64,000 nucleotides of DNA, taken from positions 1 through 64,000 of the forward strand of contig CAMDUL010000010.1 of NCBI GenBank assembly GCA_945878135.1, written 5' to 3'. Position 1 is the first letter of the stretch, and each line of letters begins with the position of its first letter. A model generated the notes under the pieces. That model was given only the letters and a program-made list of their open reading frames with translations. It did not search any database and was not told the DNA's origin. Both the position numbers and the translations under genes were made by a program. Positions 3,679-35,972 of this stretch are shown here, one piece after another. Origin of the DNA: Chthoniobacter flavus (GTDB lineage Bacteria; Verrucomicrobiota; Verrucomicrobiia; Chthoniobacterales; JACTMZ01).

Positions 3679-5216
3679 GCAAAAAATCCAAGAAACTCAC
3701 CACCGGCGTGGCCACCCTCGTCGCCCCGGCATCGCACGCGGCCATTGTTCCGGTGCGCGACCGTCATCTGCGCTTCAACGAACGCTGGAATTATTCGCCC
3801 GCTCCGGAAGTTCACACCGACATCAAAATCCAGCCGCGCTACGACCTCTTCATCGGTGGCAAATTCGTCAAACCATCGTCGGGTAAATATTTCCCCTCGA
3901 TCAATCCGGCCACGGAGAAGCAGCACGCTGAAATCGCACAGGGCACCGCGGCCGATGTGGACAAAGCGGTCAAGGCCGCCCGCCGCGCCTACGAAAAAAC
4001 CTGGGGCAAGATGCCGGGACGCGAACGCGGCAAATACCTCTTCCGCATCGCCCGCCTCTTGCAGGAAAAAATGCGCGATCTTGCGGTGATCGAATCCCTC
4101 GACGGCGGCAAAACCATCCGCGAGAGCCGTAATATCGACCTGCCGCTCGTCGCCGCGCACTTTTTCTACCACGCGGGGTGGGCGGACAAACTCGACTACG
4201 CTTTTCCCGGGCGCAAACCGCAACCCCTCGGCGTGGCCGGACAAATTATCCCTTGGAATTTCCCGCTGCTCATGGCCGCGTGGAAACTCGCTCCCGCCTT
4301 GGCCTGCGGAAACACCTGCGTGCTCAAGCCCGCCGAGACGACATCCGTCACCGCCATGCACTTGGCGGAGATTCTCGCCGAAGCCGACCTGCCCGAAGGT
4401 GTGGTCAACATCGTCACCGGATTCGGCGACACCGGCGCGGCCATCGTCAATCACCCGGACATCGACAAGCTCGCTTTCACCGGCTCGACCGAGGTGGGCA
4501 AGATCATCGCCAAGTCGGTGGCCGGCACGCGCAAGAAGCTGACTCTCGAGCTGGGCGGCAAGGCGGCCAACATCATTTGCGAAGACGCGCCCATCGACCA
4601 AGCGATCGAGGGCATCATCCAAGGTATTTACTTCAACCAAGGTCACGTCTGCTGCGCCGGTTCGCGTCTCTTCGTGCAGGAAAGCATCGTCGAACCGGTC
4701 ATCCGCCGTCTGCGTAACCGTCTCTCCACCCTGCGGGTGGGGGATCCGCTCGACAAAAACACCGACATCGGCGCGATCAACAGCCGCGAACAACTCGGCA
4801 AAATCCGCGAGATGGTTGAAAGCGGTAAGAAAGAAGGCGCCGAATTGTTCCAACCGGCGTGCAAGCTGCCGTCGAAAGGATTTTTCTTTGCCCCGAGCTT
4901 CTTCACCGGCGTGACCGACTCGCATCGCATCGCGCAGGAAGAAATTTTCGGACCCGTGCTCAGTGTAATGACCTTCCGCACCCCGGAAGAAGCCCTCGAG
5001 CGTGCCAACAACACGCCTTACGGCCTGAGCGCCGGCGTTTGGACGGACAAAGGCAGCAAGGTGTTCAAACTCGCCACGCAACTCCGCGCCGGCGTCATTT
5101 GGGCCGAGACCTACAACAAGTTCGACCCCGCCAGTCCGTTCGGCGGCTACAAAGAAAGCGGCTTCGGCCGTGAGGGCGGCAAGCAGGGATTGCTCAGCTA
5201 TCTCAAGCTCGGGTAG
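3675..5216 (+). CDS. NAD(P)-dependent aldehyde dehydrogenase
   Basis: This 513-residue ALDH-superfamily enzyme has the cofactor segment IIPWNFPLLMAAWK, the FTGSTEVGK loop, the general-base motif LELGGKAANII, the catalytic Cys in NQGHVCCAGSR and the EEIFGPVLSV motif. The first 45 residues (Lys/Ala-rich, then RFNERWNYSPAPE) are an extension beyond the usual core. It shares an ATGA overlap with deoC, so acetaldehyde from deoxyribose breakdown is a plausible substrate, giving acetate. This substrate is inferred from context, not from a specificity motif. Confidence 0.9.
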   Translation: MSKKSKKLTTGVATLVAPASHAAIVPVRDRHLRFNERWNYSPAPEVHTDIKIQPRYDLFIGGKFVKPSSGKYFPSINPATEKQHAEIAQGTAADVDKAVKAARRAYEKTWGKMPGRERGKYLFRIARLLQEKMRDLAVIESLDGGKTIRESRNIDLPLVAAHFFYHAGWADKLDYAFPGRKPQPLGVAGQIIPWNFPLLMAAWKLAPALACGNTCVLKPAETTSVTAMHLAEILAEADLPEGVVNIVTGFGDTGAAIVNHPDIDKLAFTGSTEVGKIIAKSVAGTRKKLTLELGGKAANIICEDAPIDQAIEGIIQGIYFNQGHVCCAGSRLFVQESIVEPVIRRLRNRLSTLRVGDPLDKNTDIGAINSREQLGKIREMVESGKKEGAELFQPACKLPSKGFFFAPSFFTGVTDSHRIAQEEIFGPVLSVMTFRTPEEALERANNTPYGLSAGVWTDKGSKVFKLATQLRAGVIWAETYNKFDPASPFGGYKESGFGREGGKQGLLSYLKLG

Positions 5217-5226
5217 CTGGAACAAT

Positions 5227-5297
5227 TGTAGCGGCGGTCTGTGACCGCCGGAACTTAAAGGGGTAAAGGCACCGACGGACATAGTCCGCCGCTACAT
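5227..5297. repeat. Twin-hairpin element (TTGTAGCGG family)
   Basis: Two units face each other: TTGTAGCGGCGGTCTGTGAC-CGCCGG on the plus strand and, in inverse orientation, a unit whose stem is CGGAC-ATA-GTCCG. The outer ends TGTAGCGGCGG and CCGCCGCTACA are inverted repeats. It fills the gap between the aldehyde dehydrogenase and the convergent response-regulator gene, where it could also help end transcription. Confidence 0.75.
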
Positions 5298-5303
5298 CCT
5301 CGG

Positions 5304-6041
5304 TTACTCCTCCAATTCGCCAGCCACTTGCGGGATCGCTTCGCGCAGGCGCCGCAGGGCGGTGCGGCCGAGTTCGACGGGTGGTCCGAGTCCGCGCAGC
5401 GTCACCCTTGCGCCACGCGTCGGGCTGACCTCGATGGTTTCCACCCGCTCGATATTGATCATGAGCGAGCGGTCGAGGCGGACAAGCGGAGGCGAGGGCA
5501 GGGTGCGTTCGAAGATGCCGAGGGTTTGGCAAATGAGCAGAGGGTGCTCTTGCTCGACGGTCACGCGGGTAAAATCGCCCTCGGCCTGCAGCAGCACGAT
5601 ATCCTCGGCTCGCGTGACCAGCGTCCGTTCCGGCGTGCGCAGGCAAATGCGGTCCTCCTCGCCGTAGGCCGGTTCCTCGCTGCCCCGCCCGAGTGCGGAC
5701 TGCAGTCGCGCCACCGCCTCGGCCAGCCGCGCGGGGCGCACCGGTTTGAGCAGGTAGTCGACGGCCTGAACCTCGAAAGCTTGCACCGCATATTCGCTGT
5801 GCGCGGTGACGAAGACAACCGGCGGCGGAGCGGGAAGTTTCTTGAGCAGGTCGAATCCGTTGCCGTGGGGCATGCGGATGTCGAGGAACAGGGCGTCAGG
5901 GGCGAGCGCCGGAATAGCGTGCAGAGCTTGTGTCATACTCCCGGCTTCGCCGCAGACCTCCACGCCCGAGCACCGACCGATTTCGGCGCGCAGTCCCTGG
6001 CGGGCTAGCGCTTCGTCATCAACGATCATCACGCGGAGCAT
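5304..6041 (-). CDS. LytTR-family response regulator
   Basis: This 245-residue protein has an N-terminal REC domain (acidic pocket VDDEA; phosphoacceptor Asp54 in LFLDIRMP; signalling Thr in VFVTAHSEYA; Lys in YLLKPV) and a C-terminal LytTR DNA-binding domain (VLLQAEGDFTRV ... LVRLDRSLMINI). LytTR regulators bind direct repeats upstream of targets, often cell-surface genes. Its start lies 13 nt inside the 3' end of the sensor-kinase gene, so the two are one operon and a cognate pair. Confidence 0.92.
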   Translation of the reverse strand: MLRVMIVDDEALARQGLRAEIGRCSGVEVCGEAGSMTQALHAIPALAPDALFLDIRMPHGNGFDLLKKLPAPPPVVFVTAHSEYAVQAFEVQAVDYLLKPVRPARLAEAVARLQSALGRGSEEPAYGEEDRICLRTPERTLVTRAEDIVLLQAEGDFTRVTVEQEHPLLICQTLGIFERTLPSPPLVRLDRSLMINIERVETIEVSPTRGARVTLRGLGPPVELGRTALRRLREAIPQVAGELEE

Positions 6042-7108
6042 GGCGGATCCCAGAGTTGCAGCGTCGCGGCGACGCTTTCGTTTTTCGCTTCCAGCGTGAA
6101 CCGGTGCCGTTGCGGGTAGTAAAGATCCAGCCGCCGGCGCAGCGTTTCGAGTCCGAGCCCCTGGTGGGAAGGGTCGGCCGGTTCCATCGCGCCGGAATTG
6201 GTCACGGTGATTTCCAGCAGGTTGCCGTCGACGCGCACGCGCAGTGTGATGTAGAGGGTGCCGGTGGATCGGTCGAGGCCGTGCTTGACCGCATTTTCGA
6301 CCAAGGGCTGGAGGAGGAAGCTCGGCACCAGCCGCATGCGGGCGGGCTCGGGAGCCTCGACCTTGAAATGCAAGCGGTCGCCGAAGCGGGCGCGTTCGAT
6401 GCGCAGGTAGCTTTCCATGGCACCGAGCTCGGTCGAAAGGCGGGAGATGGGCTGCTTGCGGTGGTCGAGCGAGTAACGCAAATAGTCAGACAACTGCCCG
6501 ACCATATCGACAGCGGCGTCCGGATGCGGGCGGATTTCCGCGGCGATGCCGTTGAGCGAATTGAAAAGGAAATGCGGGTCGAGTTGGGAGCGGAGCATCT
6601 GCAGTTCCATGCGCTGGGCGTCATGCTGGGCTTGCACGCGGCGCTCGGATTCGCGCGAGCGCTCGGTATCGGCCCATAGCCAGTAGTATCCGAGGCTCCA
6701 CATCATGAAGCTCGCCCACATGAGGATGAAGCGCAGAGTGACATTGACGAAGAAATCGAACATCGGGTTGTGCCAGCCGGTCACGAGCGTGAAGCCCGCG
6801 GCCACTGCTCCCTGCGCAAAGGCGGCGGCGAGACTCAAAACGATAAGCAGCAGGGCCGGCAGCAGCCCGAAGACGCGGTCCGTCCGCCGGTAACACGCGC
6901 GCAGGGCGAGCGAAAGCAAGAGGCAGGTGCCCTCGAAGACCACGGTGGACAGCGCGGCGCGCCCCGGTGTCTGACCCGAGGCCAGACGGATGCCGAAGGC
7001 CAAAAAACCGAAAGGGATCCAGAAGAACAGGTTCATCTGCCAGAAGGCCCAGCTATGGGCAAAAAAGCCGCGCCATCCGGCAGCGGGCAGGGGCTTCACG
7101 GGCGGCAT
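6029..7108 (-). CDS. LytS/YehU-type sensor histidine kinase
   Basis: This 359-residue protein has four predicted membrane helices in residues about 25-150 and no large periplasmic domain. A short coiled linker (DTERSRESERRVQAQHDAQR) leads to the His_kinase box LDPHFLFNSLN with the phosphoacceptor His, then an HATPase domain with N box LVENAVKHG and G box GLGLETLRRRL. It would phosphorylate the overlapping LytTR regulator. It is divergent from the chitinolytic fusion gene, with 181 bp between starts, so control of that gene is a reasonable guess. Confidence 0.9.
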   Translation of the reverse strand: MPPVKPLPAAGWRGFFAHSWAFWQMNLFFWIPFGFLAFGIRLASGQTPGRAALSTVVFEGTCLLLSLALRACYRRTDRVFGLLPALLLIVLSLAAAFAQGAVAAGFTLVTGWHNPMFDFFVNVTLRFILMWASFMMWSLGYYWLWADTERSRESERRVQAQHDAQRMELQMLRSQLDPHFLFNSLNGIAAEIRPHPDAAVDMVGQLSDYLRYSLDHRKQPISRLSTELGAMESYLRIERARFGDRLHFKVEAPEPARMRLVPSFLLQPLVENAVKHGLDRSTGTLYITLRVRVDGNLLEITVTNSGAMEPADPSHQGLGLETLRRRLDLYYPQRHRFTLEAKNESVAATLQLWDPPCSA

Positions 7109-7289
7109 GGCGTCCAGCTTTGCAGGTGCGGGGTGTCCGAACCAGCGACTTTCGCCGCCCCTTTGGCCGATTCACAGACTCATCCGGCCGATTCATCGAA
7201 AACGCCGAGCACTCCGCCGCAGACGGTGTCTTTTTCTTCAGAGCCGGTGATCCGTCCCCAGACGTCCGTCGGCCAAAAACCATCACACA

Positions 7290-10145
7290 ATGAAAATAAA
7301 ATACCTCCTAGTGGCGGCAGCCGCATTGTTGGCTACCGCCTTGCACGGATTCGCCCATGGATCCATGGCCAATCCGGTCAGCCGTGTTTACCAGGTCTTC
7401 CTGGAAAATCCGGAAAACCCGTCGAGCGCAGCTGCCCGTGCGGCCGTAGGTGTGTCGGGACCCACGCCTTTCTACACGTGGAACGAAGTGGCCCGGCTTG
7501 CGCCGCAGCGCAACTACCGCGACCTCATTCCCGACGGCAAACTGGCCAGCGCGGGATTGTCCAAGTTTGCCGGCATCGATCTGGCGCGGTCCGATTGGCC
7601 GGCCACGCCGGTTCAGGCGGGGCCTTACGACTGCGTGTTCTATGCCACCGCGCCGCATCAGCCGAGCTCCTTCGCCGTGTACATCACCAAGCAGGGCTAC
7701 AATCCGGCACAACCGTTGCGTTGGGACCATCTCGAGCCGGTTTCCTACTCCGTGCCCCCGTATCTCGAGGGCCGCAATTTCAGGTTCACGGTGGATCTTC
7801 CCTCGCGCGCCGGGCGCCACGTGCTCTATGTCATCTGGCAACGCGATGATCCGGCCGGCGAAGCGTTCTTCTCCGCGAGCGACATCGATTTCGGCGGCGT
7901 CGACTACCCTTCGGCACCGGCGCCGAAAAAAGCGCCCATCGACGGCTACTGCGGCACGGGTTGCACCTGCGGCCACGAAATGCCGATGCCTCCGGCCGCT
8001 CCGACAGCTCCCGAGCCTCTGCCAACACCCGTGCCCGCGCCGCCCGCCGCATCCGCAGCGCTCGAGGTCACCCATGCCGTCACTTCTAGCTGGGGCAGCG
8101 GTGGCGAGGTGCTCGTCACCCTGCGCAATCCCGGCACGTCGGCCGTGAGTGATTGGAGCGTCGAGTTCGATTACCCGGCAGACATTTCCAGCCTGTGGAA
8201 TGCCAATCTGGCCAAGGGAAATTCCTCCCCGCGCTTCAAGGTGACTCCTCCCTCGTGGAGCAACACCATCGGCGCCGGGCAGAGCACGACATTCGGCTTC
8301 ATCTACGGTGGAGCCTCGAGCACCCCCGCGTTGCAAAACCTCGTGGTCAAGCCGTCCGCAGCCGGGACTCCGACCGCACCGGCTCCGCAGCCGACCCCCA
8401 CGCCGGCTCCGCAACCGACGCCGATCCCCGTGCCGACTCCCGCACCGCAACCCCAGGCACCGGTCGCCACTTCGCCCGATGCCGACTTCACGGTGAACGG
8501 TGTTCGCGTCGAGTTCCGCGTCGGTTCCGATTGGGGCAGCGGTCTCACCGCCAGCGTGCGCCTGGTCAACACTTCCTCCAAGCCGGTGGAGAACTGGACC
8601 GTGGCTATGGACCTTGCGACAACACCCGGCAGCACTTGGGATGCCGCGCATACCCGCAGTGCGGGACGATCGGAATTCCGCCCCGTCGGGTGGAACGCCA
8701 CCATCCCCGCCGGAGGCAGTGTGAGCTTCGGCTTCAGTGCCGCGCCCGGCAATTTGCGCATCCCGCCGGCCAATGTCACGGTCTCCGGAGCCGCTGCGCC
8801 GCAGCCGGTGCAGCCCGGTCCGCTGCCCTTGCCCGAGCCCGAGGTGGTTGCCCCGACACCGACCCCGACGCCGACCCCGACGCCGACCCCGACACCGACC
8901 CCGACCCCGACGCCTGCCATCGTCGCGCCGGTTGTCCCGGTCAACCCCGCGCCGGTCGCCGGCGGCAATCCGCCGCCGATCAACGGACCGAAAATCGTCG
9001 GCTACTTCGTCGAGTGGGGGATCTACGGCCGCAACTACAACGTGACCGATATTCCGGCGGACAAGCTCAACGTGATCAACTACGCCTTCGCCGACATCAG
9101 CCCGGCGGGCGAGGTGGTCATCTACGACCGCTGGGCCGCGGTGGAGAAAGCCTTCCCCGGTGATTCGTGGGACCAAATGCCGCGCGGCAACTACAACCAG
9201 CTGCGCAAGCTAAAGCAAAAGCACCCGCATTTGGTCACCATGATCTCGGTCGGTGGCTGGACGCTCTCCGGACGCTTCTCCGATGCGGCCCTGACAGCCG
9301 AGTCGCGCGAGCGCTTCGCCCGCTCCGCGGCCAAGTTCATCGTCGAGCACGGGTTCGACGGCGTGGACATCGACTGGGAATACCCGGTCGGCGGCGGACT
9401 CGAGTCGAACGTTTACCGTCCGGAGGACAAGCGCAACTACACGCTGTTGCTCCGCGAGCTGCGCCGTCAACTCGACGCGCGCGGTGTCCTCGACGGTCGC
9501 AAATACTACCTGTCCATCGCGTCGGGCGCGGGTGACGACAAGATCCGCAACCTCGAACCGGCCGGCATCGCCGAGGCCTGTGATTGGATTAACATCATGA
9601 CCTATGACTTTGCTGGCGGCTGGGAGAAAAAGACCGGTCATCAGGCCCCGATGTTTAGCCCCGAGGGACGTGGCGCGGCCAATCCTTCCACGCTGTGGAG
9701 CGTGGACGGTGCGGTGCGGCAGTTCCTCGACGCCGGGGTCGACCCGAAGAAGCTCGTTGTCGGCGTGCCGTTCTACGGGCGCGGATGGACCGGCGTGCCT
9801 TCGGCCAACAGCGGCATCGGCCAGCTGTCGACCGGTCTGCCCGCAGGTTCCTACGAAGCGGGGATCTACGACTACAAAGACCTTGTCGCCATGATCCAGG
9901 CCAAGCCCGATGTTTACCGCGTCTTCGAGGATACCAAGGCAGAGGCCGCCTTCCTCTCTGCTCCGTCGGCCAACGGTCTCTGGGTCTCGTTCGATGACAC
10001 GGCGATTGTGAAACGCAAGGTCGACTACATCAAAGGACTCGGCCTCGGCGGCGCCATGTTCTGGGAGCTGAGCGGCGACACCAAAGATCCGTCCACCTCG
10101 CTGCTCGAAGTCCTCTACCAAGGCTTCAAGCCGCAGCAGAACTGA
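7290..10145 (+). CDS. Multimodular chitin-degrading enzyme: AA10 LPMO-CBM2-CBM2-GH18
   Basis: This secreted 951-residue enzyme carries two catalytic domains. After a signal peptide (1-22) the mature chain begins with His23 (HGSMANPVSR), which with His123 (TAPHQPSS) forms the copper histidine brace of AA10 lytic polysaccharide monooxygenases; the closing AA10 strand is SASDIDF. A Cys-rich, Pro-rich linker follows. Two CBM2-like modules (about 258-355 and 398-505; motifs SSWGSGGEVLVTLRN and SDWGSGLTASVRLVN) should bind crystalline polysaccharide. A Pro-Thr linker joins a GH18 domain (about 570-945) with the motif DGVDIDWEYP, acid Glu697. The combination implies oxidative plus hydrolytic attack on chitin by one polypeptide. 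A strong terminator follows. Confidence 0.93.
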   Translation: MKIKYLLVAAAALLATALHGFAHGSMANPVSRVYQVFLENPENPSSAAARAAVGVSGPTPFYTWNEVARLAPQRNYRDLIPDGKLASAGLSKFAGIDLARSDWPATPVQAGPYDCVFYATAPHQPSSFAVYITKQGYNPAQPLRWDHLEPVSYSVPPYLEGRNFRFTVDLPSRAGRHVLYVIWQRDDPAGEAFFSASDIDFGGVDYPSAPAPKKAPIDGYCGTGCTCGHEMPMPPAAPTAPEPLPTPVPAPPAASAALEVTHAVTSSWGSGGEVLVTLRNPGTSAVSDWSVEFDYPADISSLWNANLAKGNSSPRFKVTPPSWSNTIGAGQSTTFGFIYGGASSTPALQNLVVKPSAAGTPTAPAPQPTPTPAPQPTPIPVPTPAPQPQAPVATSPDADFTVNGVRVEFRVGSDWGSGLTASVRLVNTSSKPVENWTVAMDLATTPGSTWDAAHTRSAGRSEFRPVGWNATIPAGGSVSFGFSAAPGNLRIPPANVTVSGAAAPQPVQPGPLPLPEPEVVAPTPTPTPTPTPTPTPTPTPTPAIVAPVVPVNPAPVAGGNPPPINGPKIVGYFVEWGIYGRNYNVTDIPADKLNVINYAFADISPAGEVVIYDRWAAVEKAFPGDSWDQMPRGNYNQLRKLKQKHPHLVTMISVGGWTLSGRFSDAALTAESRERFARSAAKFIVEHGFDGVDIDWEYPVGGGLESNVYRPEDKRNYTLLLRELRRQLDARGVLDGRKYYLSIASGAGDDKIRNLEPAGIAEACDWINIMTYDFAGGWEKKTGHQAPMFSPEGRGAANPSTLWSVDGAVRQFLDAGVDPKKLVVGVPFYGRGWTGVPSANSGIGQLSTGLPAGSYEAGIYDYKDLVAMIQAKPDVYRVFEDTKAEAAFLSAPSANGLWVSFDDTAIVKRKVDYIKGLGLGGAMFWELSGDTKDPSTSLLEVLYQGFKPQQN
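8853..8912 (+). repeat. Hexanucleotide tandem repeat coding the Pro-Thr linker
   Basis: Ten consecutive CCGACN units encode ten Pro-Thr dipeptides between the second CBM2 and GH18. The third-base variation (A, C, G) shows the array is not freshly expanded, but unit gain or loss would lengthen or shorten the linker in frame. Confidence 0.9.
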
Positions 10146-25767: not shown

Positions 25768-25797
25768 GCACCGACGCTCACAGAGCGCCGCTACAAA
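25768..25797 (-). repeat. TTGTAGCGG-family hairpin unit at a stop codon
   Basis: Read on the minus strand it is TTTGTAGCGGCGCTCTGTGA followed by GCGTCGGTGC. The stem is GCTC/GAGC in place of the GGTC/GACC of other copies. The TAG inside TTGTAGCGG is the stop codon of the neighbouring isomerase-family gene. Confidence 0.75.
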
Positions 25798-26657
25798 TGT
25801 GTCGCTGTGCCGGTGTGGTTCGCCAGCGCGAGGCGGCGGGCGCGTTGGCGGAGGTAGGAGCGGGCGCGGCGGGCGCGGGCCATCACGATGTCGGGGCTGC
25901 CGTCGCCGGCCAGTTCGAGGATGAGGGCGCCGGTGAAGTTCACGGCGGCCAATTCCTTGAGCAACGCGGTCCAGTCGATGCGTCCGTCGCCCGGCGGAAG
26001 ATGGTCGTCGCCGTGGCCCTTGTTGTCATGGACGTGGAGCAACCGCAGATACGGGGCCATTTTGCAGACGAGCGCGAAAAGGTCCCCGGCGAGATGGGCG
26101 TGGCCGGTGTCGAGGCACGCGCCGACGCGGTTGCCTTTGAGGCAGGCGAGGATCCAGAGGAGGTCGGCGGACTGTCCGAACATGAGGTGCGGCAGTTTGT
26201 TTTCCAGCACGCATTGGATGCCGACCTCGCCGCAGCGCGCGGCCACGCGGTCGAGGACGCCGCAGACGTTCTCGATGCGCAGCAGGCGTTCCTCGCGCGA
26301 GGGAATGTCCGAGTTCTCGGGTCCAGGATGGATGACGAAATAATGCACGCCGAGCAGGGCGGCGGCGTCGATGGCGGGCAGGATGGCCTCGAAGGCTCGT
26401 TGGCGGGTGGCGGCGTCGGGTGAGGAGATGTCGATGTCGTCGGCAAACGGCGCGTGGAACGAGTAGGCTTCCATACCGAGCGTGTCGATGCGCGCCGCGG
26501 CCTCCTGGACGCGCGCGGGGTTTTTGTAGTCCAAGTGCGGCGACGAGAACACAACCTCGATCATGCTGAAGCCGCTGGCGCGGATGGTCTCGAGCCGGTC
26601 GATCAGCGGCTCAGTGTAGAAGCAACCGGTCGACAATCCGATGGGCCAGTTGGTCAT
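25791..26657 (-). CDS. AP-endonuclease-2/xylose-isomerase-like TIM-barrel protein
   Basis: This 288-residue protein of the sugar-phosphate isomerase/epimerase superfamily shows metal-binding strands YFVIHPGPEN, CVLENKL, ACLDTGHAHLAGD, LLHVHDNKGHGDDH and LILELAGDG. The family includes endonuclease IV and sugar epimerases (such as IolE/IolI), so function cannot be fixed by motif alone. It overlaps the upstream primase-like gene by ATGA, which makes a shared process likely. Its stop codon lies within a conserved hairpin repeat. Confidence 0.82.
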   Translation of the reverse strand: MTNWPIGLSTGCFYTEPLIDRLETIRASGFSMIEVVFSSPHLDYKNPARVQEAAARIDTLGMEAYSFHAPFADDIDISSPDAATRQRAFEAILPAIDAAALLGVHYFVIHPGPENSDIPSREERLLRIENVCGVLDRVAARCGEVGIQCVLENKLPHLMFGQSADLLWILACLKGNRVGACLDTGHAHLAGDLFALVCKMAPYLRLLHVHDNKGHGDDHLPPGDGRIDWTALLKELAAVNFTGALILELAGDGSPDIVMARARRARSYLRQRARRLALANHTGTATHL

Positions 26658-28030
26658 AGCTCGACGGCTGCGAGTGGCGAGGGCACGGCGCACGGCGGAT
26701 GGGTTTCGGCGCCGCGGATTTCCTCCGCCTCGGTGGCGACGGAGGTGCGTTGTCCGGCGAAGATGCGGGTGTAGTAGTCGGCACGCAGAGCCGGGGAATA
26801 ATCTTTCCATTCCGCGCCCCATCCGTAATCACGTTCGAATTTCGAGCGGATCAGCCCGGCGATGTGGCGCGGATGCCAGCCGCGGTCGAGCAGGGAATTG
26901 GTGACCCGCTGCATGCCGACCGGGCGCAGGAGGAGATCATTGGGATGGCGCAGTGCCTCCCGCGCGCCGGCCGGCAGAATGTCCAGCGGCGTGTGGTCGT
27001 AGGTTTCCGGCCAGCGGTGGGGATCGTCGTGCCGGGCGGTATGGAAAAAGTCGTGGAAGGCCTTGAGTCCGGATCCGAGGTAGTGGTGCAGCAGGTGTTC
27101 CGTGCCCGTGGTGTGATCGGGAATGACCGCCGTGGCGTCGCGGGCCGCTTCGGCGGCCAGCGCCGGGTTGCGCATCGCGGCGAGGCCGTGCCGCAGGTCG
27201 GTGCCGTCGAGAGTGACGAAAATGATCGGTCCGATGCGCGGCAGGTTGTCCGTGCCGATGGCTTGCGGTTGTTGCCATGGCTTGAGGTAGCCGCTGAAGG
27301 GCACACGGATGGTGCGCATGGGCAGGGGATCGGCGTATTCGGAGAGGTCGAGCGAGATCATTTCCCTTCCGCGCCGCGAGGGCGGCGGTTCGACGGCCGT
27401 CATTTCGACGGGAATGACCGTGTCGCGATCGGCCAACTGCATGACAAGGCGGGCGACGAATTCCATGAGGAGCCCGAGTCCGGCGAAAGCGCAGGTGATG
27501 GACGGTGCGTCGAGTCCGTCGCGCCGGCGGACGAGCAGGGAGTCATGAAGCTGGGCGGCCCGGCCCGATTCGGCCAGGCGGGCGAAAACACTCGAGGCGC
27601 GGCTGATGCGCCAGACGAAATGGTGTCCGCGTCCGCTGAGGATATGCAACGGTTCGATCCCGTAGTGCGCGAGCACACGGCGCAAGGCCATCTCGACCGG
27701 TTCCTGCAGGGCGAAGGCCCGGGCGGGGTCGAGGTAGGCGTCCGCCGGGAAGTCGAAATTCACATACTCGATATCGACGTGGGCGAGAAGTGAGTCGCGG
27801 TCGGCCAGCGAGCGGCAGATGTCGCGTCCGGCTTCGAGTTGGGGCGCGAGTTCCCAAGGCAGGAGCGGCTCGCGCTCGGCGGCGCGGGTGTTGTCCGCGG
27901 TGATGTATTCCGCGGTGAAGTCGCCCGCGGCGTCCGCCCCGAGGAATTCCAGCATGCGCGCGCGCACGGCAGGCTGGCGGTAGTAGTCGCGAAGGGTGTC
28001 GGTGATATCGGGCACGACATGAGGGAACAC
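26654..28030 (-). CDS. Putative archaeo-eukaryotic-primase (AEP)-like protein
   Basis: This protein of about 458 residues has three spaced motifs resembling the AEP catalytic core: acidic strand LAHVDIEYVNFDF, then HILSGRGHHFVWRI (the sGRGxH signature), then ISLDLSEYAD with TIRVPFSGYLKPW (D ... RxPxS ... K). A helical C-terminal region (SLLDRGWHPRHIAGLIRSKF) resembles a primase C-terminal helical module. This assignment is my inference from motif order; it needs a profile search. GTG at 28030 is chosen because the alternative GTG at 28102 would leave no promoter space from the divergent gene. It is coupled ATGA to the TIM-barrel gene. Confidence 0.55.
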   Translation of the reverse strand: MFPHVVPDITDTLRDYYRQPAVRARMLEFLGADAAGDFTAEYITADNTRAAEREPLLPWELAPQLEAGRDICRSLADRDSLLAHVDIEYVNFDFPADAYLDPARAFALQEPVEMALRRVLAHYGIEPLHILSGRGHHFVWRISRASSVFARLAESGRAAQLHDSLLVRRRDGLDAPSITCAFAGLGLLMEFVARLVMQLADRDTVIPVEMTAVEPPPSRRGREMISLDLSEYADPLPMRTIRVPFSGYLKPWQQPQAIGTDNLPRIGPIIFVTLDGTDLRHGLAAMRNPALAAEAARDATAVIPDHTTGTEHLLHHYLGSGLKAFHDFFHTARHDDPHRWPETYDHTPLDILPAGAREALRHPNDLLLRPVGMQRVTNSLLDRGWHPRHIAGLIRSKFERDYGWGAEWKDYSPALRADYYTRIFAGQRTSVATEAEEIRGAETHPPCAVPSPLAAVEL

Positions 28031-28050
28031 CAGGCGCGGTGATCGTGAAA

Positions 28051-28065
28051 TGGGGTATACTGCCC
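28051..28065 (-). promoter_or_regulatory. Candidate promoter/operator motif GGGCARTATACCCCA (copy 1)
   Basis: The minus-strand 15-mer GGGCAGTATACCCCA lies 20 nt upstream of the chosen GTG start of the primase-like gene. A copy differing at one base is found at 41837-41851 upstream of another minus-strand gene. It contains a TATACC/TATACT -10-like core, but no clear -35 box is visible. Confidence 0.35.
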
Positions 28066-28103
28066 GCTGCACGCCTCCGGCGCGGGTGGCAGAATTGTCC
28101 ACG

Positions 28104-28325
28104 GTGAAGACTCCGGCTATTCCGCCAAAGTTCCGTTCCGCGTTGATCGCTTCCGCGGACGGCTCGCCGGGCCGCTACAAAGTGCGGTTGCCCCACGGCC
28201 ACACGGTTTACGAGGTGCGGATCGACGGAGAGGGCAATGTCGTATGGGTGGACGGCCGCAAGGTGCATGGCAATGCGGAGCTCGGCTTCCGCATCGAGGA
28301 CGCGCTCGGGATCGAGGCATACTGA
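28104..28325 (+). CDS. Hypothetical small protein
   Basis: This 73-residue protein starts at GTG (MKTPAIPPKF). An in-frame ATG at 28050 would extend it by 18 residues across the shared divergent region. It contains a compact beta-rich segment (GRYKVRLPHGHTVYEVRIDG, then NVVWVDGRKVHG). The family is not recognised. It is divergent from the primase-like gene, so the two may share regulatory sequence. Confidence 0.55.
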   Translation: MKTPAIPPKFRSALIASADGSPGRYKVRLPHGHTVYEVRIDGEGNVVWVDGRKVHGNAELGFRIEDALGIEAY

Positions 28326-35063: not shown

Positions 35064-35516
35064 CTAAGAAACGGGGACTTCGACGGCTTTGGTCTGGATC
35101 TCGGGAGCCTTGGGCAGATGGACGTGCAGGGTGCCGTCTTTGAACTCGGCTTTGACCTTGTCCGTCTTGGCCCCTTCGGGCAGGACGAAGGATCTTTCGA
35201 AGCTGCCGTAGGAACGCTCGATCCGGTGGTAGCGGCGGTTTTTCTCCTCTTTCTCGAACTTGCGCTCGCCGGTGATGCGGATGGTGCCGTCCTCCACGGT
35301 GACATGGACGTCTTCCTTTTTCACCTCCGGCAGATCGGCTTTGATGGTGAACTCTTTGTCGTCCTCCGAGACGTCGACCAGCGGGCTCCATTCGGAGGCG
35401 CTGATCGTTTCCTCCCCGGTCCACGGAACGAGGGAACGGCCTCCGAAGAGGCGGTCGATGCGGTTTCGCATGGTGTCCATTTCGCGGACCGGATTCCAGG
35501 TGGTGAGTATGCTCAT
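35064..35516 (-). CDS. Hsp20/alpha-crystallin small heat-shock protein
   Basis: This 150-residue chaperone has an N-terminal arm (TWNPVREMDTMRNRIDRLFG) and an alpha-crystallin domain (PLVDVSEDDKEFTIKADLPE ... GSFERSFVLPEG ... AEFKDGTLHVHLPKAPE), ending with a short tail that holds an I/V-x-V-like motif (VEVPV). It would hold unfolded proteins under stress. ATG at 35516 has a purine-rich AAAGGAA ten nt upstream. No CIRCE element is visible. Confidence 0.95.
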   Translation of the reverse strand: MSILTTWNPVREMDTMRNRIDRLFGGRSLVPWTGEETISASEWSPLVDVSEDDKEFTIKADLPEVKKEDVHVTVEDGTIRITGERKFEKEEKNRRYHRIERSYGSFERSFVLPEGAKTDKVKAEFKDGTLHVHLPKAPEIQTKAVEVPVS

Positions 35517-35680
35517 GATGTTGTTTTTCCTTTTTCTGCGGTGATTTCGGTTGCCGTGCGCGGCATTCACCGCCGGTGCCGTGCGCGGGTCCGGTTTGAC
35601 GTCTGAAGCGGCGCTCCGGGATGTCCCAAGCAAAGCGCAGGGCGAGCGGCGTGCCCATGGGGTGTTCGACCCAAAGGAGG

Positions 35681-35972
35681 AAGACAGGCCACAGCCGAGC
35701 GCAGCGAGACGGCCGAGGCCTCAAGGCCGCAGGCAAATTGACGCGGATGAAAGGCGGGATAGGAAGCTTGGCCGGCTGATTGGCTTGCGGCCATCTAGGT
35801 CTTGATGCCTCCATGTCGAGCACGCTTCCCTACAGGGACCTTACTTAAGTGGTCATTGGGGCTGCTTTGAGGTGCACGGGGCTCTTGGTTCCGGTTTTTT
35901 TGAGGCGGTTTATCGCAATGCGATTGGAGTAGTCGTCGGGCGCCGTCCGTCGGTTATCGCTCACCCGGAAAA
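35681..35972 (+). repeat. Duplicated intergenic module, copy A
   Basis: This gene-free region carries two blocks that recur in the same order at 37.7-38.1 kb. Block 1 (35681-35784) begins GAAGACAGGCCACAGCCGA, continues with AGGCAAATTGACGCGGATGA and ends GCCGGCTGATT. Block 2 (35926-35972) begins GGAGTAGTCGTCGG and ends GCTCACCCGGAAAA. Copy A has a 32-nt insertion after CAGCCGA relative to copy B. The rest of 35517-36021 holds nothing I can assign. Confidence 0.65.

Follow-up and report, generated by a model that had tools for sequence, protein, structure and literature searches.

A conserved, overlapping gene pair encoding a predicted AEP-family protein and an endonuclease-IV-like barrel protein, and its possible role as a stress-linked DNA repair module

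In the window, i.e. the whole stretch of 64,000 nucleotides that was analyzed, two genes on the minus strand form a closely coupled pair (Table 1). The upstream gene encodes a predicted member of the archaeo-eukaryotic primase (AEP) family, and the downstream gene a putative metallo-phosphodiesterase with an endonuclease-IV-like TIM barrel. The TGA stop codon of the AEP gene and the ATG start codon of the barrel gene share the letters ATGA (the plus strand reads 'tcat'); the initial annotation had described this overlap of stop and start. The three stretches it quoted as catalytic motifs of the upstream protein (LAHVDIEYVNF, LSGRGHHFVW, and TIRVPFSGYLK) were likewise found, in that order, in the minus-strand reading frame ending at 26654. 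Its interval (26654-28030) covered the first gene, but position 28030 lies slightly upstream of the likely start and the barrel gene falls outside. Most likely, the AEP gene starts with the GTG at 28015, which is favoured because conservation among homologues begins there. Residue numbers of the AEP protein follow translation P0001, with residue 1 at 28021. A small divergent reading frame (28050-28325 of the window, plus strand) faces the 5′ end of the AEP gene; it had no match in the loci of relatives that were compared.

Table 1. Positions of the gene pair and the neighbouring Hsp20 frame in the window.
Feature	Position	Strand	Length	Remarks
AEP (primase-polymerase) family gene	26654..28015	-	453 aa	Length from the likely GTG start
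Endonuclease-IV-like TIM-barrel gene, putative metallo-phosphodiesterase	25791..26657	-	288 aa	Based on Pfam, conservation, and alignment
ATGA stop/start overlap between AEP gene and barrel gene	26654..26657	-		
Hsp20 reading frame	35064..35720	-		Lies ~7 kb from the pair; belongs to the stress-linked neighbourhood but not to the module itself

The AEP protein was detected in 11 of 57 related genomes. In ten of these, the AEP gene lies directly adjacent to a close barrel orthologue, and no other close barrel orthologues were found among the 57 genomes; in the eleventh (G031), the pair has decayed. A scan of GTDB genome contigs returned 80 AEP loci, distributed over Verrucomicrobia, Planctomycetes, Acidobacteria, Desulfobacterota, Fibrobacterota (Chitinivibrionales), Hydrogenedentota, and others. 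Directly downstream of the AEP gene, 78 of the 79 testable loci have the barrel gene. Of the two loci making up the difference to 80, one, L076, reaches the edge of its contig, and the other, L113, is a lone second AEP copy. Truncated barrel partners were present in two of the 78 loci (L047 and L104). With starts picked by a simple rule, the two genes overlap in 67 of 77 loci, and -4 nt is both the median and the commonest spacing. Distances among the AEP proteins and among their barrel partners are correlated (r = 0.82, without correction for shared ancestry). The genes also decay together: in L104, where most of the barrel partner is lost, four catalytic residues of the AEP protein are replaced (D83E, E85K, H134R, and K247R), and in L186 both genes are broken. 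The pair is a real unit. Chance is excluded because the AEP protein occurs in these 11 relatives and in 80 further loci with near-invariant motifs and a conserved neighbour. No description of the pair was found in the literature searched, which covered published articles and, of subscription journals, only a minority.

Distant AEP relatives without a barrel partner were detected in L187 and L188, and pairing therefore defines one branch of a wider AEP family. L187 holds two distant copies facing each other (5103-6512, plus strand, and 6843-8174, minus strand), and the homologue in L188 is located at 154-1470 on the minus strand. The partnerless second copy in L113 (7998-9227) has intact catalytic residues, and the same genome contains a complete pair (L094). 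An apparent frameshift splits the AEP gene in G002 (L005/L012) and G012 (L011/L013).

Searches with the AEP protein gave no sequence match in Pfam, NCBIfam, PHROGs, or PDB; a 61-row profile and its members had no match in these libraries or in PADLOC. The AlphaFold2 model derived from the 61-row alignment was predicted with high scores (pLDDT 91.2, pTM 0.91). Comparing it with PDB by Foldseek, the top match was the LigD polymerase domain (2r9l; probability 1.00, E = 1.1 × 10−3; TM-scores 0.33 for the query and 0.50 for the target), followed by Prim-PolC (6sa0, 5op0, and 6sa1; probability ~1.0), the RepB′ primase and, weakly, the pRN1 primase and a CRISPR-associated Prim-Pol. The same leading matches were obtained with an earlier model from a ten-row alignment. 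Matches were almost exclusively to AEPs, without a cyclase match of note, and a viral structure library returned mainly primases. The model also shows a helical C-terminal region of the protein's own. Profile-profile comparison with LigD polymerase domains was no better than column-shuffled controls, and the pair's AEP was never among the matches to ligD_pol (TIGR02778) at E = 1 × 10−3 in 15 genomes. Profile search placed the protein in no unrelated family, an outcome that the initial annotation had named as refuting, and its predicted fold finds almost only AEPs. Judged by the model, it belongs to an AEP family that is remote from LigD and unrecognizable by sequence; as no sequence profile matches, this membership rests on the predicted fold, the motifs, and the order of secondary-structure elements.

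AEP motifs are defined as hhhDhD/E (motif I), sxH (motif II), and hD/E (motif III) (PMC5862659). Residue conservation over 80 homologues located motif I in LAHVDIEY (D83 kept in 79/80; E85 in 77/80, with Asp in two more), motif II in SGRGHH at residues 129-134 (G130 and G132 in 80/80; H133 and H134 in 78/80 each), and motif III at D225 in EMISLDLSEY (80/80). The initial assignment of catalytic motifs was correct for the first two, but TIRVPFSGYLK represents motif IV with the flange Arg (R236 in 80/80, R239 in 78/80), and the true motif III is D225. K247 is kept in 79/80. All four motifs are thus nearly invariant among the homologues. In the model, motif I is borne by strand 77-88, motif II lies in the loop preceding strand 132-140, and strand 220-225 terminates in D225, which would correspond to the order of motifs and strands expected for an AEP.

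Such an enzyme could act in damage tolerance, with the AEP re-priming at stalled forks or bypassing lesions there and the barrel protein removing or trimming the abnormal termini that result or incising leftover lesions. The AEP fold and motifs would suit this role, bacterial AEPs include priming enzymes, and primases were matched in the viral library. The best fold matches, however, are gap-filling repair polymerases and not primases, and neither helicase nor single-strand-binding genes recur next to the pair, which makes damage tolerance an unlikely function.

The downstream protein matched the Pfam family AP_endonuc_2 (PF01261; 1 × 10−38), in agreement with its original placement among TIM-barrel proteins of the endonuclease IV superfamily. 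Its nine metal ligands (H68, H110, E152, D183, H186, H208, D217, H219, and E248) were invariant (77/77) and align with those of endonuclease IV. All specific curated families left the protein below their cut-offs: it reached 37.9 bits with the Nfo profile (TIGR00587; cut-off 129.65) and 60 bits with that of CbiR (NF041277; cut-off 105), the highest-scoring curated profile. The best solved relatives of the barrel profile were MJ1311 (PDB 3wqo, 1 × 10−32) and 5zhz, deposited as probable endonuclease 4 (6 × 10−15). By score, MJ1311 and CbiR are closer to the barrel than Nfo is. It has the D-x-H element (D217-x-H219) as in Nfo, whereas CbiR has R-D-H instead. The KNN-W segment of Nfo (K32, N33, N34, M35, and W37, invariant in the Nfo alignment) is absent from the barrel family. 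In a phylogenetic tree, the pair barrels formed one clade (99) apart from Nfo (100), CbiR (100), and isomerase-like rows; the CbiR rows were imperfectly extracted, and the tree is therefore used solely to show that the pair clade is separate. A grouping with sugar isomerases or epimerases is not seen in this tree; the initial annotation had considered a firm grouping with sugar epimerases, together with a non-conserved pair, as a refutation. Two assignments of the barrel were rejected: that of an endonuclease IV orthologue, by the score far under the Nfo cut-off, the missing KNN-W segment, and the separate clade; and that of a CbiR, by score, clade, and the lack of cobamide genes among the recurrent neighbours of the pair.

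The metal site and the AEP partner suggest that the barrel protein acts on DNA. Since the barrel scores nearer to MJ1311 and CbiR and lacks the KNN-W segment, abasic DNA may not be its substrate. A different chemistry could be modelled on CbiR, which cleaves the phosphodiester of a cobamide: in stressed cells, the palm-fold enzyme would synthesize a small nucleotide or a product linked to one, to be processed in turn by the three-metal phosphodiesterase. This would account for the ranking of CbiR and MJ1311 above Nfo and for the stress-linked neighbourhood of the pair, and nucleotide cyclases and AEPs have a common core fold. Yet the motif pattern and the fold matches are AEP-like, with no notable cyclase match, and neither a sensor or effector gene nor cobamide genes recur beside the pair; we consider such nucleotide chemistry quite improbable.

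Genes recurring in the neighbourhood of the pair encode Hsp20, universal stress proteins, cation P-type ATPases, and LuxR-type response regulators. The Hsp20 frame in the window is the only Hsp20 gene detected in this genome. Hsp20 was located within 10 kb of the pair in 14 of 32 genomes compared with 0.45 expected. Many of the genomes with this arrangement are related, yet they represent several Verrucomicrobia lineages as well as Planctomycetes; the linkage is partly a matter of shared descent. In relatives, the Hsp20 gene frequently lies close to the pair or immediately upstream of it. Apart from the pair, no gene recurs in most loci. The largest clusters of neighbours consist of shadow reading frames antisense to the pair, and neither a ligase nor a glycosylase was consistently linked among the recurrent neighbours. 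The neighbourhood suggests that the pair is used under stress or slow growth. It also bears on the idea of a mobile-element or defence replicase with an attached nuclease, for which the frequent location of bacterial AEPs in mobile elements might speak (PMC5862659). Given the chromosomal stress-gene neighbours, the lack of matches in plasmid, phage, and viral-contig collections, and the lack of a PADLOC match, this idea is largely refuted and hardly credible.

Within the genome that contains the window (91% completeness), no Ku, no LigD polymerase domain, and no canonical Nfo were detected. Its ATP-dependent ligase lies away from the pair. Contig C11 of the same genome carries a reading frame of ~1240 codons (L129:2568-6290) that appears to join an MBL-fold exonuclease-like half with a LigB-type ATP-dependent DNA ligase, of which the ligase half has a Pfam match and the MBL half was judged from sequence. 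The top fold match and the presence of Ku in 11 of 39 carrier genomes could point to a backup NHEJ system, consisting of a LigD-kind polymerase acting with Ku and an ATP ligase and of the barrel as an end-trimming nuclease. The reading is weakened by the absence of Ku from this genome and from 28 of the 39 carriers; moreover, this genome is without a LigD polymerase domain, and the Ku-bearing carriers tested have a separate one besides the pair's AEP. We regard backup NHEJ as very improbable.

None of the 10 relatives in which the pair is intact had canonical Nfo, versus 19 of 57 relatives. Replacement of Nfo by the pair is nevertheless only partly supported, because genomes of this genus that have no pair also lack canonical Nfo and 10 of the 39 wider carrier genomes have both. 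A carrier of the Desulfobulbaceae (L058; G450 contig C215) has the pair at ~2200-2577 and canonical nfo at 3817-4647 on the minus strand, i.e. about 1 kb downstream on the opposite strand.

On balance, we favour the interpretation that the pair constitutes a stress-linked two-enzyme module for excision or gap repair; it probably acts in stressed cells as a cut-and-fill DNA repair unit not described so far. With its endonuclease-IV-type three-metal site, the barrel protein would incise the DNA backbone where sugars are damaged, or trim 3′ ends that are blocked, so that a short gap with a clean 3′-OH remains. The AEP polymerase, which is translationally coupled to it, would then fill this gap, possibly using ribonucleotides, before sealing by a host ligase. 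We infer this order of steps, a physical interaction of the two proteins, and a regulation of the pair by stress. Counted in favour of the module were (i) the conserved pairing of the overlapping genes, their co-evolution and co-decay; (ii) the AEP fold and motifs; (iii) the intact metal site; (iv) the Hsp20 context; and (v) the mycobacterial precedent. Counted against it were the failed LigD profile comparison, the modest Foldseek E-values (~1 × 10−3) and TM-scores, the proximity of the barrel to MJ1311 and CbiR, the missing KNN-W segment, the lack of a linked ligase or glycosylase, the presence of Nfo in 10 of 39 carriers, and the contribution of shared descent to the Hsp20 linkage. With the corrections given above, the repair or tolerance reading of the initial annotation is supported, where we infer the repair function. 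More tentatively, the two proteins may represent a new AEP family and a new subfamily of three-metal nucleases that are inherited together and make up an obligate repair complex in at least five bacterial phyla. This complex would perform short-patch excision repair in stressed cells, independently of Ku, LigD, and canonical endonuclease IV, and take over the role of abasic-site endonuclease in lineages where Nfo is absent.

If true, this would add a polymerase family that all sequence libraries used here miss, together with a compact repair unit of two genes found across environmental phyla. The known example of AEP polymerases taking part in base excision repair comes from mycobacteria. A dedicated, translationally coupled nuclease-polymerase pair would allow direct tests of whether gap repair by AEPs has more than one origin and whether it is of use to non-growing cells.

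The pair can be compared with four known systems. (i) The LigD polymerase domain of NHEJ was the best fold match in the second search, yet it is undetectable by sequence profile, and the pair-bearing genomes are, unlike the LigD setting, mostly without Ku. (ii) Nfo shares the TIM-barrel superfamily and the nine metal ligands with the barrel protein, but differs by clade, profile score, and KNN-W segment. (iii) CbiR provides the top curated profile of the barrel and MJ1311 its closest solved structure by sequence; unlike CbiR, the barrel lies in a separate clade, scores below the family cut-off, and has no association with cobamide genes. (iv) In mycobacteria, Prim-PolC uses ribonucleotides to fill gaps of 1-3 nt during base excision repair in stationary phase, and EndoIV was the most beneficial partner nuclease in vitro because it has no strong 3′-5′ exonuclease activity (PMC5663958, PMC7442782). 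The likeness to this Prim-PolC/LigC/endonuclease IV system lies in the AEP polymerase, for which Prim-PolC was among the top fold matches, and in an endonuclease IV-type nuclease as partner for short-gap repair. The named mycobacterial partner is the ligase LigC, whereas the pair has no linked ligase; unlike Prim-PolC, the AEP protein described here is unrecognizable by sequence, has its own helical C-terminal region, and is translationally coupled to a divergent barrel. By the tests run, the two proteins belong to neither of the mycobacterial families, and by analogy it appears rather likely that they work together as EndoIV and Prim-PolC do.
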